Of a stretch of DNA of 36,937 nucleotides, positions 8,912 to 16,869 are shown in pieces. The stretch is from Bacteroidales bacterium (lineage in GTDB: Bacteria; Bacteroidota; Bacteroidia; Bacteroidales; P3). The first letter of the stretch is position 1. Each line of letters begins with the position of its first letter. The stretch covers positions 1 through 36,937 of the forward strand of contig JAKSML010000018.1 in NCBI GenBank assembly GCA_024400665.1. The letters are read 5' to 3'. The notes beneath the pieces were generated by a model, which was given only the letters and a program-made list of their open reading frames with translations, ran no database searches and had not been told where the DNA came from. The translations under genes were made by a program, and so were the position numbers.

Positions 8912-11260
8912 TCAGAAACTAAATTGGATACCGGCTTGAAGTGCTGGCAACTGGAGGGTGCATCCGCATTTGGAGTGAACCATGGCGGATTCACAACGAA
9001 GATAGACGCCAAAGAGGTCGTAGGAGATGCGCGTGATGGCGCCCAAGACAAAGTTGTAGTCGTACAACGAACTGCTATTACGAGGCACCTGGTAGTCGGT
9101 AGAGACTTTCCAGTCATTGACTTCCTGTTCGAGGCAGTAGTGGCGATAGGCATTCCAGCCTACAAAGAGACCCAGGTCCCAGTGCCAGCCCTTGCTGTCG
9201 ATGCCGCCAGGGACGAAACGGACGCGCTGGAACAGTTCGAAGTCGAACTGCTGCATATTGAGCTTCTTCTGCGTGATGCCCGTCATATCGGTGAGACCTA
9301 TCTCTTCATCCAACTTATTGATACCATCCGTGGCATAATTATTGTGCGTCCAGTTCCACTCCAGTCCCATGCCGAGGCTGTAAGCCTTGCCGTAGGCCCG
9401 CATGATGCGGAAGCCAAGATGGCCAGAAGGTGACCAAGGCAGAAGGTTGTCATCATAGCTATAGAAATTGTCGCCATACATGAAGTAGATGTCTTTGCGC
9501 CATTTGGCACAGCTGCCCCAGATGGAGGGCTTCATGTAGGCCTCATCGATAGTATAATTCTCAAGGTCGTATCTGTTGCCGGTAATGATGCCGACAAAGG
9601 GTTCGTTCCGATTCCAGAAACGCATACGGTCGGCATTGCTGAGGCGGAAGTGGTCGGTGTAGCCCGCATAGGAGACATTCAGCGTGCAACTGTCCAAAGA
9701 GCCTTTGTAGAATCTGATGCAGGGGTCTGCGGTGTCCCCAGCATATCCCACTGAGGAATAGGAGACCAAAGAGCCGTCGGGACGCTGCTTGTTGTAGAAT
9801 ATAGTGGGGATCTGATTATCATTTCTTGTCGGATTCAGATCTTTGTAGTTCGAACCGTTGGGACGCACCAGGAGGTGGACCTCCACGCTGTCCTTAGTCT
9901 CACGCATGGCAAAGGTAGGCGCCTTATGCTGCGGGGTCTTATCGGTGAAGTAGGAGGCCTGCGGAACGCCATAGCCCATAGCGTAGTCAAAATAGGGATA
10001 CAAGTCGGCAGACTTTTGTATCTCGTCCATCATCTGCATGGCGGTCTTCTCTGGCATAGCCTGCCAAGCACAGGCAGCAAAGCCCGCGACAAGGGGGCAG
10101 GAGAACGAGGTGCCATCCGCCTCGGTGATGGCCGCATCACCTTTATCGGAAGCCACAACAGCATGACCGAAAGCGGCAACATTCGGCTTCATGCGGCCAT
10201 CGGACGAAGGACCCAATGAGCTGAAGCTGATATGGTCATACTCTGTCAAAGAGGGTTTGATGCCGCCCACGCAGAGGACGCTGTCGGCATCAGAGGGAGT
10301 GACGATAGTCTTCCACTGCCTCACATCGGCCTCATTGCCAGCCGAAGCGCACACGAGGATGCCTTTTCGCGCAGCCATGTTGGCAGCCTTAGCCACGTAG
10401 GAGGTGCCGTCCATATCCTTGGTGTAGTAGCGTTCCTTGCCGTAGCCGAGAGAGCTGCTGATGATGTTGGCACCATGCTGGTCGGCACGTTCCATGCCCT
10501 GCATCCACCAAACTTCTTCCTTGAAAGGCTCCAACTCCACCTCGGTGCGGTACAGCAGAAACTCTGCGCCTGTGGCCAGACCAATCCTGTTGTTATTAGG
10601 CATTCCAGTGATGCACGAAAGGGTCATCAAGCCATGGGCGTTCCATCCATAGACATCGGCTTTCTTGAGAGGGAAATTCCAGGTGTCGAGGATACGGTGT
10701 CCCTCGTGCAGATGTTTGAAAGCGTCGTGGGTGTTGACGCGGGGAAATCCTGCGTCGAGCACAGCGATACGGATGCCCGTTCCGTCGATGCCGTTGTCGC
10801 GAAAGAGCTGGCCCTGCATACGTTCAAGCTGCCAGGTAAGTTGTGAGACATCCTTGTCGTCAGCAGCCTGATACTGTTCTTCTACAGTCTTGCACAAGGC
10901 CAGCTGAAGGTCGGAGGCAATGAGCACGATGTCCTTTACGAAAGAGAGTTCGCGAATTGCCTCAATCTGGTCGGGCAAAGCCATCACAGCCACGGCGTTG
11001 AGCCAGCGGCTCTGACCCACCTCCTCAATGGCGAGCGCGTCAATCTGCGAGACATAGCTGCCGTTGAGCGGATAGTTACTGATGTCGTAGAGGTCGGCGC
11101 CACATTGGCGGTAGCGCTCTATGGCCTTGGCATCGAAATAGGCGTAGGGGTCGAAGGTGGTGCCCTGCTTATCGGTGAGGAACACCCAGTAGCACGACTG
11201 GCTGAAGGCGGGGAGGCCGGCCAGGGCTAACATGACGATGAGGAATATTTTCTTTATCAT
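8912..11260 (-). CDS. Secreted subtilase (S8) with barrel-like C-terminal domain, copy A
   Basis: The start chosen at 11260 gives MIKKIFLIVMLALAGLPAFSQ, a type I signal peptide; a Met 8 codons earlier is possible. Numbering from that earlier Met, the S8 catalytic residues are Asp177 (AVLDAGF), His217 (NAHGLM), Asn317 (ASAGNE) and Ser393 (GTSFSCP). The Asp and His motifs deviate from the usual D-T-G and H-G-T. Residues about 570-790 alternate aromatic and polar positions in strands separated by turns and end with Phe (LQAGIQFSF), typical of an outer-membrane barrel; no T9SS C-terminal domain is seen. It is a diverged paralogue of the upstream gene, 34 bp away by this start. A surface-anchored self-displayed protease is inferred. 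Confidence 0.85.
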   Translation of the reverse strand: MIKKIFLIVMLALAGLPAFSQSCYWVFLTDKQGTTFDPYAYFDAKAIERYRQCGADLYDISNYPLNGSYVSQIDALAIEEVGQSRWLNAVAVMALPDQIEAIRELSFVKDIVLIASDLQLALCKTVEEQYQAADDKDVSQLTWQLERMQGQLFRDNGIDGTGIRIAVLDAGFPRVNTHDAFKHLHEGHRILDTWNFPLKKADVYGWNAHGLMTLSCITGMPNNNRIGLATGAEFLLYRTEVELEPFKEEVWWMQGMERADQHGANIISSSLGYGKERYYTKDMDGTSYVAKAANMAARKGILVCASAGNEADVRQWKTIVTPSDADSVLCVGGIKPSLTEYDHISFSSLGPSSDGRMKPNVAAFGHAVVASDKGDAAITEADGTSFSCPLVAGFAACAWQAMPEKTAMQMMDEIQKSADLYPYFDYAMGYGVPQASYFTDKTPQHKAPTFAMRETKDSVEVHLLVRPNGSNYKDLNPTRNDNQIPTIFYNKQRPDGSLVSYSSVGYAGDTADPCIRFYKGSLDSCTLNVSYAGYTDHFRLSNADRMRFWNRNEPFVGIITGNRYDLENYTIDEAYMKPSIWGSCAKWRKDIYFMYGDNFYSYDDNLLPWSPSGHLGFRIMRAYGKAYSLGMGLEWNWTHNNYATDGINKLDEEIGLTDMTGITQKKLNMQQFDFELFQRVRFVPGGIDSKGWHWDLGLFVGWNAYRHYCLEQEVNDWKVSTDYQVPRNSSSLYDYNFVLGAITRISYDLFGVYLRCESAMVHSKCGCTLQLPALQAGIQFSF

Positions 11261-11294
11261 TATAGTATATATTTCTATATTCAATTATTGTGAA

Positions 11295-13808
11295 TTAATG
11301 GATACCCAACGTGAACCAAGCCAAATCAATGGCAACGCCGACCTCGAGACGGGGCAAGGGGGGAACGGTCATGTTGTGGTTCAACAGACCCGTCATGCGA
11401 TAACGGGCATACAACGAGAATCCACAACCAGAGAATCGGGTGGTGAGACCCCAGTCGTAGGGGTGGAGGGGCAGACGCTGCTTGAGGATGCCTTTGTTGT
11501 CATCCTGATGGAAAAGGATGTCCTCACGATAGCGGTTGTAGCCGAAATAGGCACCAAGATCCCAATTGAACTCGCCCGCACCTGTTGTCATCAGACGGAC
11601 GCGCTGGAAGAGCTCCACATTGAAGGCGTTGTCTATCACACTGCTGTCCTTGAGGGTGATGTTGCTACGGTCGAGCGGCATCTCGCAGTTGCTATAGCTA
11701 TTGAAGAGGGGCTCGTTGGTGGCCATGCGGAAATGCGCGTTGCGCCATTCGATGCCCATGCCTAATTTGTATCTCTTACCCGTATTCCAGATAGCACGTC
11801 CGCCCAAGGTCCACACGGGCGACCAGCCTTTCGTCTGGTATTCCCACTCGCTGCCCGAGGTGCGGGTGGCGAAAAGGTTGCCCAAAGAGAAATAGAGGCC
11901 CTCCCATTCGGTGCCATGTTCTTTCACTTCCAAATCCTTCAGGGTATGATTTGCCCTGTCACCCCGGTAATGGTCATACGAATAATCATCATCTATTTCA
12001 ACCACCTCCTCAAGCACCTCCAGATCTTCATCATCCACTACAATAACCCCCTCCACATCAGAAGAGTCTTCACGACAGAATCTCCACCTGAACTCGTTGG
12101 GTTCTGCGCCTGTCTTGAAACGCATATTGTCCTCTGCCGAGAGTTTGTAGGTGAGCAGATAGCCGTTGCAGCTGACGTTCAGCGTGCGGTCAACCAGGCC
12201 TTTCTTGGGGACCTTAATACCATTATAGCCATAAATGCCACTATAGACACGGACACATTCATCGGTCCAGGACTCAATCATTCCGTCAAGACCCGTGACG
12301 TTGATGAAGATATTGATCTTGCGCTTCTCATAAGAGTCGCAAGTATCGTTATAGTAGGCTTGGTGTTGGTTTTCATTATAATTATATATCGCTATAGAGT
12401 CGAAATTGAAAAAGACATAGTCGCTTTCCTCGGCAATGGTCACACACTTAGGGACAGCGGCTTTGCCATCCAAGAAGTAGGATGCCTGCGGGACGCCGTA
12501 GCCGACACTGTAGTCGTGATAGGGATAGAGGTCGGCGCTCTCTATCACGTCCTGCTTCATCTGAAGAGCCGTGCGGTTGGGGCGGGCCTGCATGGCACAT
12601 GCCACAAAGCCAGCCGTGAGCGGACAGCTGAAGGAGGTGCCACGCTCTAACTCGTATCCCGTATCGTGCTTCGGGTCTGCAACGATGGCAAGACCAAAGT
12701 TCACCACGTCGGGCTTCTGGCGACCATCGGCTGTAGGACCATAACTGCTGAAGGAGATATGGTTGTAACTTGTGAGTGAACTACAAATACCACCTACGCA
12801 CAGTACGTTTTCGGCATCTGCGGGAGTGACGATGCGCCTCCAGTTGTAATCATTGCCCTCATTGCCAGCCGAATTGCACACCACTATGCCTTTCTGCACT
12901 GCCATGTTGGCTGCCTTGGCCACGTAGCTGGTGCCATCCATGTCTTTGGTGTAGTAACGGGCGTCGCCATAGCCCAGCGAGGAGCTGATAATCTGGGCGC
13001 CGTTCTTATCGGCCCACTCGGCTGCCTGTGCCCACCATATCTCTTCTCTTTTAGGTTCAGTCTCGACCTCGGTACGAGCCAGCAAGAACTCGGAGCCTGT
13101 GGCCAGACCTATCTGCACGGTGTCGTTCATGATGCCGGTGATACAGCTCAGCGTCATGGTGCCGTGACCGCCATAGCCATACACATCTTCTTTTTTGTTC
13201 GGGAAATTCCATGTCTTGATAATCCGGCCGTTGTCGCGCAGATGCTTGAATGCGGCATGGGTGTTCACACGGGGGAAGCCGGTATCGAACACGGCGATAC
13301 GGATGCCCTTGCCGTTGATGCCTTTCTCGCGGAAGAGCAGTCCGCCTTGGCGCACCAACTGGTCGGCCATATAGGGATTTGCGCCTTCAAACTCATCGGA
13401 GAGGCCACCACCTGGTATCGAGGGTTCGGCCATTACTTCCGAATGGCTGGCCAGCGTGCCTTCTGCGTCTATCTGCTGCACACGCAGCACAAAGGGCAAT
13501 GCCTCAATGCGGGCTATCTGGTCGGGCGTGGCGGTGACGCCGATAGCATTGAGCCAACGGCTGCTGCCCACCTCTTCGGTAGCGATGCGGCACACCTGAC
13601 TCACGTACTGCTCGTTGAGCGGATAGTTGCTGATGTCGTAGAGGTCGGCACCGCATTGTTGATAACGGGCTATGGCCTTGGCATCAAAATAAGCGTATGG
13701 GTCGAACGTGGTGCCCTGCTTGTCTTTCAGGAAGACCCAGTAGCACGGCTGGCTGAAGGCAGGAAGCGCAGCCAGAACAACAAGAGTTATAAAGAATATC
13801 TTTTTCAT
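11295..13808 (-). CDS. Secreted subtilase (S8) with acidic linker and barrel-like C-terminus, copy B
   Basis: The 837-aa product has a type I signal peptide (ALPAFSQ), an N-terminal prodomain-like region (22-150) and a full S8 catalytic set: Asp175 (VFDTGF), His215 (GGHGTM), Asn316 (NSAGNE), Ser392 (GTSFSCP). A beta-rich region follows (450-575), then a very acidic linker at about 581-612 (VVDDEDLEVLEEVVEIDDD), then about 200 residues with barrel-like strands (LGGRAIWNTGKRYKLGMGIEW, FNWDLGAYFGYNRY, GFSLYARYRMTG). No T9SS C-terminal domain is visible. The start overlaps the recO stop by 4 bp, indicating translational coupling. The paralogue downstream lacks the acidic linker. The substrate is unknown. 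Confidence 0.88.
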   Translation of the reverse strand: MKKIFFITLVVLAALPAFSQPCYWVFLKDKQGTTFDPYAYFDAKAIARYQQCGADLYDISNYPLNEQYVSQVCRIATEEVGSSRWLNAIGVTATPDQIARIEALPFVLRVQQIDAEGTLASHSEVMAEPSIPGGGLSDEFEGANPYMADQLVRQGGLLFREKGINGKGIRIAVFDTGFPRVNTHAAFKHLRDNGRIIKTWNFPNKKEDVYGYGGHGTMTLSCITGIMNDTVQIGLATGSEFLLARTEVETEPKREEIWWAQAAEWADKNGAQIISSSLGYGDARYYTKDMDGTSYVAKAANMAVQKGIVVCNSAGNEGNDYNWRRIVTPADAENVLCVGGICSSLTSYNHISFSSYGPTADGRQKPDVVNFGLAIVADPKHDTGYELERGTSFSCPLTAGFVACAMQARPNRTALQMKQDVIESADLYPYHDYSVGYGVPQASYFLDGKAAVPKCVTIAEESDYVFFNFDSIAIYNYNENQHQAYYNDTCDSYEKRKINIFINVTGLDGMIESWTDECVRVYSGIYGYNGIKVPKKGLVDRTLNVSCNGYLLTYKLSAEDNMRFKTGAEPNEFRWRFCREDSSDVEGVIVVDDEDLEVLEEVVEIDDDYSYDHYRGDRANHTLKDLEVKEHGTEWEGLYFSLGNLFATRTSGSEWEYQTKGWSPVWTLGGRAIWNTGKRYKLGMGIEWRNAHFRMATNEPLFNSYSNCEMPLDRSNITLKDSSVIDNAFNVELFQRVRLMTTGAGEFNWDLGAYFGYNRYREDILFHQDDNKGILKQRLPLHPYDWGLTTRFSGCGFSLYARYRMTGLLNHNMTVPPLPRLEVGVAIDLAWFTLGIH

Positions 13809-14545
13809 TGTAATACAGTATGTAATATTTCGTGCGATTTGAAATTATGAAATTCGGAGAGATGAAGCTGAAAATAGTCCAAGAGACGGTTGATGAGCTC
13901 GGTGCGCTGCGACAGCGTGGTGAGCGGGCATTCCGTGTCGTCATGTATGGCTTGGAGATAGGTGTGGAGCAGCAGCGATGCCGAAGGGGTGAGGGTGTTG
14001 TCGGCGGCATAGCAGAAACAGCCCTCGCGCAAGTCGAAGAGCGGCTCGCGCGCGCTGTAGTTGTCCATAGGCTCAATGCCCAGATGGTGCGAGAGACGCA
14101 GCATGAAGAGGATGGGGAAATGACCATAGGAGGCAGCGGCTGGCTCTTGCAGCCGAGCCAAGGACTCTACCACATAGTCGAAGAGTGGCTGGTCGGGCTC
14201 CTCCTCGCGGAGCGACTTGTAGAGCAGCTCTGTCATAAAGAAGACGACGGCATTGCGCACCGCTTCGTCCTCCATGCTGGCTGTGACAGACGAGACCTCG
14301 CCGATGTGAGGTGCAACCTCCTTGAGATAATTCAGCTGAGTCTTGGGGTTGTTATAAACCACAAGGTCAAGATACCGCAGCGGCTGCAGCAGGTTCTGCT
14401 TGGTTTTGCTTCCACCCTTGCGGACTCCTTTGAGGATGTAGGAGCGCACGCCCAGCTGCCGCGTGAAGAGCTTGGCTATCACCGAGGTCTCGGAATAGGC
14501 TGTGGTGTGGAGCACCAGGGCTGGGGTGGAGAGCGTGGGCGTCAT
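13805..14545 (-). CDS. recO: DNA repair protein RecO
   Basis: The 246-aa product has the RecO layout: an N-terminal OB fold (TPALVLHTTAYSETSVIAKLFTRQLG, then YILKGVRKGGSKTK) and a helical C-terminal domain. RecO anneals DNA and, with RecR, loads RecA on SSB-coated single strands in the RecF pathway. The Bacteroidetes version lacks an obvious C-terminal Cys4 zinc site; one Cys pair (EGCFCYA) is seen. It overlaps porZ by 4 bp upstream and copy B of the subtilase by 4 bp downstream, so it is embedded in an envelope/secretion transcript rather than with repair genes. Confidence 0.93.
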   Translation of the reverse strand: MTPTLSTPALVLHTTAYSETSVIAKLFTRQLGVRSYILKGVRKGGSKTKQNLLQPLRYLDLVVYNNPKTQLNYLKEVAPHIGEVSSVTASMEDEAVRNAVVFFMTELLYKSLREEEPDQPLFDYVVESLARLQEPAAASYGHFPILFMLRLSHHLGIEPMDNYSAREPLFDLREGCFCYAADNTLTPSASLLLHTYLQAIHDDTECPLTTLSQRTELINRLLDYFQLHLSEFHNFKSHEILHTVLQ

Positions 14546-16869
14546 CGTATTATCAATATTTTAGTTACCGAACGCATCTTGCCCATCTTGTCGGAAGCGA
14601 AGACGAAATAGGTGCCGCTTGCCACAGGCACGCCGTTCTGATTACAGCCGTTCCACACCGCCTGTCCGCCATGTGCCGTGGTGGAGAAGACCGTGTGGCC
14701 GCGGGCATCGGTGATATGCACCAGGGCGTCGCGAGTGAAGCCATAGACGCAGATGGGACCGTCATAATCGGGTCTGACAGGATTGGGGAAAGCGTGAATA
14801 TCAACCAGCGGGTATTCGTCAGCCTCTGTAGCTGTGGAGCGGTAGGACTGAAGGCCCTTGTCGGTACCGATATAGAGGATGCCGTTGTCGGGATGGACGG
14901 CGAGGGCGACAATCTTGTCGGATGCCAGCGAGCTGTTGGCGGTAGTGAAGTGACTGAGCTGCTGCAGGCCGTTGGCAGAGATGAGGTAGAGGCCGTTGTT
15001 GGCGGTGCCCACCCATTTGCGGTTGGCGCCATCGACGGCGATGCAGGTGATGTTCTCGTATGCCATCAGATACTCATTGATGCCGTCTTCGTTGTAGAGG
15101 ATATTGCTGCAGTTCACCGGAGCCTGCTCGCCGCGGCCTCCGTTCGAGAAGGCGCGATAGCCGTCATAGATGACCTTGATGCCTTTGTCTGTGCCAAACC
15201 AGATATCGCCGCTATGGTCCTGGACAATGCAGTTGACAGTATGGGTCTCCAGCTTGCTGCCACGGTTAGGGCTGACGTAAGCCATCTTGTCCACACCGTC
15301 GTGGACATAGATGCGGTTGGCGCGGCCGACTATCCATTTGTATCCCGTCACGCTGTCATAGATAATCTTGTCGATTTCCTTCTTCTCTTTTGTGAGGTCT
15401 TGCAGCATCGGGCTAATGTCAAACGAGGCCCAGCTGCCATCCTTATAGCGGACAGCGAGGCCTTTATCGACCAGCGAATTGGTTATCCACAGATTGCCTT
15501 TCTCGTCGTAGGCGAGACCCGAGACGCGGAGATGGTCCATCCCCTCAGAAGAATAGCGCTGCAAAGCGTTGTCGGTATTCGTCTGGTCAAAAAGTTCTTG
15601 GACGACATTGTCCTGAATGTCCAGCACGCCATAGCCCCACGAGGTGGCCGAGATATGGTTCTTGTGCTTAGGATCGACAGCCATGTAGAGCACATCTTGG
15701 AAGGCAACGTCAATATCTCCGCGGCCTATCTGCGTCCAAGCCGTGCCATCATAGATGGAGAGGCTGCCCGGGAGATAGGAGTTCTCGTAGGTAGGCTTCT
15801 TGCCTCCGGGGCAGAGATAGAGATTGTCGTATGTGGCGACGAGGCTATAGACATAGTCGTTATTTGTCGGCCCTGCGGGTGCGAAAGATGCAGACACAAC
15901 CCTGTCGGGCGAGAGACGCACCACGCCAGCCCATATATGGCCAGCCCACAAGGTGCCGTCGGCATCACAGTCGATGTCGTTTGCCACAAAGCCGAAATCG
16001 GGCATCTGGCTCGTCGTCTCTTGCAGCTGAAAATCCTTGTCGTATATATCCACCTGGCTGTAACGGTTTACCAGGAGCCTGTCATGATGACTGCGCAAAG
16101 AGGCAACACGCCCCTTGTCGATGCTGCCCCAGCTGTTCTCGGTCTGCTGATAGAAGAGCGTCATACTGTCGGGGTTGTCTATGCAAGCAGCCACAACGAG
16201 TTTCCCGTCCAAGACTTCGAGCCTTCTCACCGAGAGGCTCGCAAAAGGCGACACAGTGTCACGGCGCCATTCGTCATAGATGTGAAGACGGCGGCTGTTG
16301 CTCGGAGCGTACAGCAGCCCGTCGGCCGTGGCAGCCACAATCAAGCTGTCGGTGAAGGCCACATCATAGACCGTTCCGTTCTGTCCGCCATCTCCGAGAT
16401 AGTAGGTCTCCTCTATCTCACGGCGGGGCACATTCACCACCACGATGCCGAAACCTGTGGCGAGGTAGAGCCTGCTGCCGCGAAAGCGCATACTGTATAT
16501 CTGCTTGTCGCCGCTGATGTTGCCCGTGCGGATATCGGCCACATTCTCTGTGCGCCCGTCCATAATCAGGTCCAAGCCCGAATTGCTGTAGGCCACAGCC
16601 AGGCAACGCAGCTGCTCGCTGTAGGCAAAGGTGGCGATGCCCACGTCCGAGAGCCCCGATACCTTTGTCAACGGCTTGACGGAGAACTCGTCCTTGTCGT
16701 AGTAGAACATGGCCGACCGTGTGGCGCAATAGACGCGGGAGCCAGCGGTTTGGACATGACGGACTTCCACAAAGGAGTTGTGGTCGCGCCATTCTCCCAC
16801 AGCCTGCGACCATGCCGAGAATGTGCCTAACAGCAGCAGCGTCAACAAAAGGTACCTCTTCATATTCAC
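14542..16869 (-). CDS. porZ: PorZ-like T9SS beta-propeller protein
   Basis: The 775-aa product has a signal peptide (LLLLGTFSAWSQ) and two stretches of propeller repeats (LYLATGFGIVVV, LWAGHIWAGVVRL, IWFGTDKGIKVIYDG, KWVGTANNGLYLI, LYIGTDKGLQSY), the two-component-regulator/PorZ propeller pattern. The last about 85 residues (FPNPVRPDYDGPICVYGF to ILIIR) form a T9SS-type C-terminal domain with the A-W-N-G and G-T-Y-x-F motifs. In Porphyromonas, PorZ belongs to the surface attachment complex with the sortase PorU. Adjacency to recO supports the call, since I recall this pairing in other T9SS genomes. A second Met two codons later (16863) is an alternative start. Confidence 0.85.
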   Translation of the reverse strand: MNMKRYLLLTLLLLGTFSAWSQAVGEWRDHNSFVEVRHVQTAGSRVYCATRSAMFYYDKDEFSVKPLTKVSGLSDVGIATFAYSEQLRCLAVAYSNSGLDLIMDGRTENVADIRTGNISGDKQIYSMRFRGSRLYLATGFGIVVVNVPRREIEETYYLGDGGQNGTVYDVAFTDSLIVAATADGLLYAPSNSRRLHIYDEWRRDTVSPFASLSVRRLEVLDGKLVVAACIDNPDSMTLFYQQTENSWGSIDKGRVASLRSHHDRLLVNRYSQVDIYDKDFQLQETTSQMPDFGFVANDIDCDADGTLWAGHIWAGVVRLSPDRVVSASFAPAGPTNNDYVYSLVATYDNLYLCPGGKKPTYENSYLPGSLSIYDGTAWTQIGRGDIDVAFQDVLYMAVDPKHKNHISATSWGYGVLDIQDNVVQELFDQTNTDNALQRYSSEGMDHLRVSGLAYDEKGNLWITNSLVDKGLAVRYKDGSWASFDISPMLQDLTKEKKEIDKIIYDSVTGYKWIVGRANRIYVHDGVDKMAYVSPNRGSKLETHTVNCIVQDHSGDIWFGTDKGIKVIYDGYRAFSNGGRGEQAPVNCSNILYNEDGINEYLMAYENITCIAVDGANRKWVGTANNGLYLISANGLQQLSHFTTANSSLASDKIVALAVHPDNGILYIGTDKGLQSYRSTATEADEYPLVDIHAFPNPVRPDYDGPICVYGFTRDALVHITDARGHTVFSTTAHGGQAVWNGCNQNGVPVASGTYFVFASDKMGKMRSVTKILIIR

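Follow-up and report, generated by a model that had tools for sequence, protein, structure and literature searches.

Tandem S8 proteases joined to putative outer-membrane barrels in a Bacteroidales lineage

Two proteins encoded side by side in the window (the whole 36,937-nucleotide stretch of Bacteroidales DNA that we analysed), P0001 and P0002, are interpreted here, with a probability of roughly 0.6, as tandem copies of a subtilisin-like protease that faces the periplasm, is tethered to the outer membrane and descends from a fused two-gene unit. The protease-barrel unit itself is real and widespread, and in the window's lineage it is fused. The ancestral unit would have encoded an exported S8 protease and, after it, a dedicated outer-membrane barrel of about eight strands. 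As proposed, the fusion protein would be exported by Sec, its S8 domain would fold with the assistance of the prodomain, and BAM would insert the barrel by way of a C-terminal aromatic signal. The protease would then be held at the periplasmic face of the outer membrane on a linker of 34-79 residues, where it could cleave envelope or arriving substrates. The parts belong to known families, and the combination and probable location are likely to be new; in the literature covered, mostly outside subscription journals and preprints, we found no account of a small outer-membrane barrel that accompanies a subtilase, whether as its neighbour or as a fusion.

Gene order and domain layout

The upstream gene, P0002, lies on the minus strand at 11295..13808 and encodes 837 aa. 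Its signal peptide (residues ~1-19) was judged by eye, and is followed by an S8 peptidase domain with a complete triad (12495..13313, minus strand; residues 166-438), a small beta domain of approximate limits (12114..12458, minus strand; residues ~451-565) and a putative barrel domain (11298..11909, minus strand; residues 634-837). P0001, the downstream gene, occupies 8912..11260 on the minus strand (782 aa); its start was taken as the ATG at the head of the signal peptide, and the upstream TTG of the mechanically called ORF was not used. Here the signal peptide, again judged by eye, spans residues ~1-20, the S8 domain 9968..10783 (minus strand; residues 160-431; triad D169/H209/S385), the small beta domain approximately 9638..9928 (minus strand; residues ~445-541) and the putative barrel 8915..9502 (minus strand; residues 587-782). 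The computed order is the same in both proteins: signal peptide, conserved prodomain, S8 domain, small beta domain, linker and a C-terminus of ~200 residues. The initial annotation, which had described two ORFs at these positions, each with a signal peptide, an S8 domain and a C-terminal region of about this length, was correct in that respect. From the beta domain to the first strand, the linker of P0002 measures 79 residues, the longest among 95 aligned homologues; residues ~555-633 (window ~11910-12146) appear acidic-rich by eye. The window comes from a partial genome assembly of 1.54 Mb, with a completeness of 65%.

P0002 and P0001 stand in tandem between mreC-mreD-porZ-recO on the upstream side and a urocanase gene on the downstream side, with recO (13805..14545, minus strand) directly upstream of P0002 and porZ at 14542..16869 (minus strand). 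Among named relatives, recO lies directly upstream in 68 of the 72 loci with room for it and porZ is found in 65 of 69; a stricter count bound to ORF limits gives recO in 52 of 72, which is lower because untrimmed ORFs overlap. Neither gene had a match in 27 loci of other families, which have flanks of a few kb and include two barrel-only and two protease-only loci. The T9SS/cell-shape operon previously noted for this region is present here, with porZ, recO, mreD and mreC all in place, and a survey beside recO-porZ recovered the setting in named relatives but not in the 27 other-family loci. Since this context is lineage-specific, a link to the T9SS via porZ was discarded, and recO is placed outside the proposed mechanism. 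The constant neighbour of the protease in the other families examined is the barrel gene. When ten neighbours from six loci were scanned, eight matched something, without a common theme, and two carried a T9SS tail. We found no paper treating porZ together with recO.

A long fusion ORF is present in 77 of the 78 named loci, the 78th (L110) beginning at a contig end, and more than one copy occurs in 17 of the 78. The titles of these loci often mention ruminant guts.

The protease domain and the T9SS sorting domain

PF00082 matched the two proteins at 131 and 138 bits (cut-off 21.8). Alignment A2, made up of 95 full-length homologues after removal of three incomplete ORFs, shows no variation at D169, H209, S385 or N309 (P0001 numbering). 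By this match and the conserved D-H-S triad, both proteins are classed from sequence as S8 subtilases, and they are presumably active proteases. The small beta domain is common to the fused proteins and the unfused S8 orthologues. The idea that it represents a decayed T9SS tail was dropped after a profile comparison gave a probability of 0.2%.

The T9SS sorting domain TIGR04183 gave no match in P0001 or P0002 at E≤1, in agreement with the earlier claim that both lack a T9SS C-terminal domain, and none in 27 orthologues at the same threshold (rows of the orthologous-protease profile A3, with fused rows trimmed ahead of the barrel). As a positive control, the model was found in 10 of 10 scanned S8 paralogues, nine of them above the cut-off. 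With the control positive and P0001 and P0002 unmatched, we rejected the two proteins as T9SS type A cargo. The paralogue matches are ~31-41% identical to P0002. The window's own genome contains one S8 paralogue (L046:2361-4064) whose end resembles a T9SS tail, scoring 21.8 against the TIGR04183 cut-off of 23 bits. S8 peptidases are described as putative T9SS cargo in a published study (PMC11982257). The Bacteroidota S8 proteases that carry TIGR04183 share the prodomain and S8 architecture of P0001 and P0002; they differ in possessing the CTD, which the orthologues of P0001 and P0002 lack, and in having no neighbouring barrel (0 of 17 S8 paralogue loci, with flanks of ~1 kb only). One Bacteroidota S8 branch is equipped with a T9SS tail, and a related branch with what appears to be a private outer-membrane barrel, separate or fused.

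SprA_N was detected in 369 of 393 genomes of the order, compared with 84 of 393 for the S8 orthologue, and T9SS presence was consequently useless as a discriminator. The rarity of the orthologue argues that the barrel is not a core T9SS part. It also makes it unlikely that the barrel is PorT itself; PorT is commonly assigned to the PF13568/PF13505 superfamily.

These data bear on an alternative in which the barrel serves to display the protease at the cell surface or to anchor it there, whether autotransporter-like or with assistance from the T9SS. The tailed S8 paralogues look surface-exported, so substrates of the protease family may be extracellular, and both the high frequency of SprA_N in the order and the T9SS tails on two of the ten genes scanned beside the pair in other families are in keeping with such a display. 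Absence of the tail from all 27 orthologues and from P0001 and P0002 argues against it, as do the barrel features described below, and we consider surface display unlikely.

The putative C-terminal barrel and its proposed orientation

The C-terminus contains eight conserved, amphipathic and strongly alternating segments; 38% of sequence windows within it pass for alternation, versus 12% in the S8 and beta domains. In P0001 the strands predicted from hydrophobic alternation are residues ~589-601, 609-622, 626-639, 668-685, 690-704, 733-748, 750-763 and 770-782. Of the 95 aligned homologues, 90 end in F, L or Y. P0001 terminates within its last strand (...GIQFSF), but P0002 extends eight residues beyond the aligned end, so that of the strand pattern initially described the pattern itself is conserved and the terminal strand holds for P0001 only.

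Part of the family directly matches known outer-membrane barrel families at E≤1. In a set of 44 barrels that includes 37 separate proteins, PF13568 was found in 12 (best 8e-10) and PF13505 in three (best 9.1e-5); among 40 fused C-termini the corresponding numbers are five (best 1.4e-5) and three (best 3.4e-5). One of two separate partners from a whole-genome search scored above the PF13568 cut-off. At E≤1, no barrel family was found in whole P0001 or P0002, and the PF13568 genome search did not pick up the fused domains of genomes G000, G398 and G139 at that threshold. Profile comparison of fused C-termini with eight PF13568 proteins was weak (2%), with a mixed set reaching 73% and controls 0.6% and 0.1%. 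Solved structures were compared with two alignments: A4, which contains separate barrels and leaves out two of the 39 (L193, a near-copy, and L220), returned only PorV at an unusable E of 0.073 over 60 positions, and A1, built from 40 C-termini, returned SUMO chains at E 0.0013, which were taken as spurious. Other strays were weak NCBIfam matches on the 44 barrels (PorV/PorQ in two, best 7.2e-5) and, among the 40 fused C-termini, the Pfam Sialidase N-terminal domain in three (best 0.0063) and DUF7011 in one. By a simple hydrophobicity score, with the start codon picked for the best score, all 39 separate barrels that were scored begin in a signal-peptide-like manner; about ten of them do not adjoin the protease.

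The barrel call of the initial annotation gains support from strand pattern and partial family matches but not from profile scans of whole P0001 and P0002; profile searches of the C-termini were positive in part of the family and weak or empty elsewhere. Family matches in part of the family, the strand pattern, the terminal signal and the separately encoded homologues all support a protease that lacks a T9SS tail and is joined to its own predicted outer-membrane barrel. The domain resembles the small PF13568/PF13505 barrels in size, in strand pattern and, for part of the family, in direct matches, and differs in adjoining or being fused to an S8 protease. Mere operon conservation, with the C-terminal domain being a non-barrel beta domain, would fit the silence of the single-sequence P0001 and P0002 scans over this region and the weak profile comparison with PF13568 proteins. 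It fits poorly with the separate homologues that match outer-membrane barrel families, with the fusion itself and with the eight alternating segments and their F/L/Y ends, and we hold it to be very improbable.

Short turns of barrels usually face the periplasm. With strand limits set by us from the alternation pattern, connections 2-3, 4-5 and 6-7 are short (mean 3.0, 4.1 and 1.0 residues), and connections 1-2, 3-4, 5-6 and 7-8 are longer (mean 8.3, 30.9, 28.5 and 7.4 residues). This order would place both barrel ends, and hence the protease, in the periplasm, an orientation that we infer solely from loop parity. An eight-stranded barrel is too narrow for the passage of a folded protease domain. 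Loop parity, which would put the N-terminus inside, and the narrowness of such a barrel lead us to prefer an OmpA-like tether, with an active protease at the inner face of the outer membrane, to an autotransporter, and both count against surface display in general. Serine protease autotransporters (type Va) likewise combine a signal peptide, an S8 passenger and a C-terminal barrel, but their barrel is of another family, and here about eight strands are predicted. PF03797, the 12-strand Autotransporter barrel of type Va, had no match at E≤1 in P0001, P0002, the 44 barrels or the 40 fused C-termini, and no type V barrel family matched at that threshold. The EprS model NF051851 matched weakly and far below its cut-off, in P0001 (E 0.026, residues 140-177) and in 8 of 27 orthologues (best 5.8e-7). 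The autotransporter-like arrangement previously suggested for these proteins was accordingly abandoned on family (matches to OMP_b-brl/OMP_b-brl_2 in part of the family, none to type V), predicted strand count and loop parity. OmpA-type proteins join an eight-stranded barrel to a periplasmic soluble domain; in OmpA that domain follows the barrel and binds peptidoglycan, whereas here the protease precedes the putative barrel.

Mean column entropy is 2.5 and 2.8 bits in the 31- and 28-residue outer connections versus 1.0-2.3 bits in the strands. This variability, together with the conservation of pair and fusion, would suit a sensor-protease unit, as opposed to a passive tether: the outer loops would detect a signal at the cell surface and thereby gate the protease in the periplasm. 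However, variable outer loops are usual among outer-membrane proteins, and we judge such a unit quite unlikely. It is doubtful, too, that Bacteroidales have a two-part envelope protease system in which a dedicated barrel not only tethers a periplasmic subtilase but also controls it, with variable surface loops coupling outside signals to periplasmic proteolysis and the fusion fixing the complex in some lineages.

Pairing and fusion of protease and barrel

A search with A1 through 393 Bacteroidales genomes gave matches in 131 of them (E≤0.001). Outside the fused group, the stronger matches are ORFs of ~235-285 residues, while among the weaker ones (above ~1e-12) there are longer ORFs (300-530 residues), which probably encode other proteins of the outer membrane. 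Across the order, the C-terminus is usually a separate exported protein of ~240 residues, encoded directly downstream of the protease. The 27 loci of other families comprise 17 with a separate barrel ORF directly downstream of the S8 ORF, five fusions, one single frame with a stop (L154), two with a barrel only and two with a protease only.

Profile A3 gave 86 matches in 84 of 393 genomes at ≥493 bits, the next match scoring 413 bits; at most three candidates per genome were scored, and further copies may be missed. These 84 genomes divide into 14 with a fusion, 56 with an adjoining barrel, six cut by contig ends and eight with no adjacent barrel. The 14 are accounted for by 15 intact genes in 13 genomes and by G357, which has an in-frame stop. 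The 56 consist of 44 and a further 12 from a wider profile (weakest G194, 28 bits); in a few of the 44 the barrel match is weak, as for G233 and G080, at 24-26 bits in the A1 search (G080 scored 28 bits when the 27 other-family loci were examined). In the eight non-adjacent genomes, a barrel lies elsewhere in four and none was seen in four (G250, G093, G067 and G185). The pair is conserved, the barrel being fused or directly downstream in 70 of 84 genomes, with caveats attached to 14 of the 70. In a sample of the phylum, the orthologue was found in 4 of 296 genomes (E≤1e-130), one being the window's own, and the barrel is directly downstream in all of the remaining three. S8 and barrel distances correlate across 51 adjacent pairs (r 0.65, compared with at most 0.30 in 1000 re-pairings), as could arise from shared ancestry alone.

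In an S8 tree of 90 rows, the fused proteins require a single change (support 88), and the clade has support 98 when G357 is included. The tree was built by a quick method with the window's P0001 and P0002 left out; two duplicate rows were removed, a further two at contig ends carry no label, and L232, L234 and L212 were relabelled by hand as adjacent. The fusion probably arose once, in the ancestor of the window's lineage and a few related lineages, as the tree suggests. Because the trait is mixed within family codes f4 and f19, there may have been horizontal transfer or loss. The G357 gene (L154:2679-5084, with the same region in L228) holds protease and barrel in one frame with a single TAA between them; it was counted as fused, not adjacent, for this reason, and reflects either a stop codon within a fused gene or a mistake in the assembly.

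Given the fusion, protease and barrel are likely to be physical partners, and the fused form offers a direct handle on a putative periplasm-facing subtilase at the outer membrane. Because about a fifth of the order's genomes (84 of 393) carry the orthologous protease, its substrate is a testable question of envelope biology.

Barrel relatives also occur in other surroundings. Genome G395 encodes two of ~285 residues (L172 and L173) and has no orthologous protease at the 493-bit level. At L219, L222, L223 and L220 the relatives lie away from the orthologous protease and beside other genes, a PLP-enzyme-like gene (by eye) in the case of L222 and L223, so other partners of the barrel may exist.
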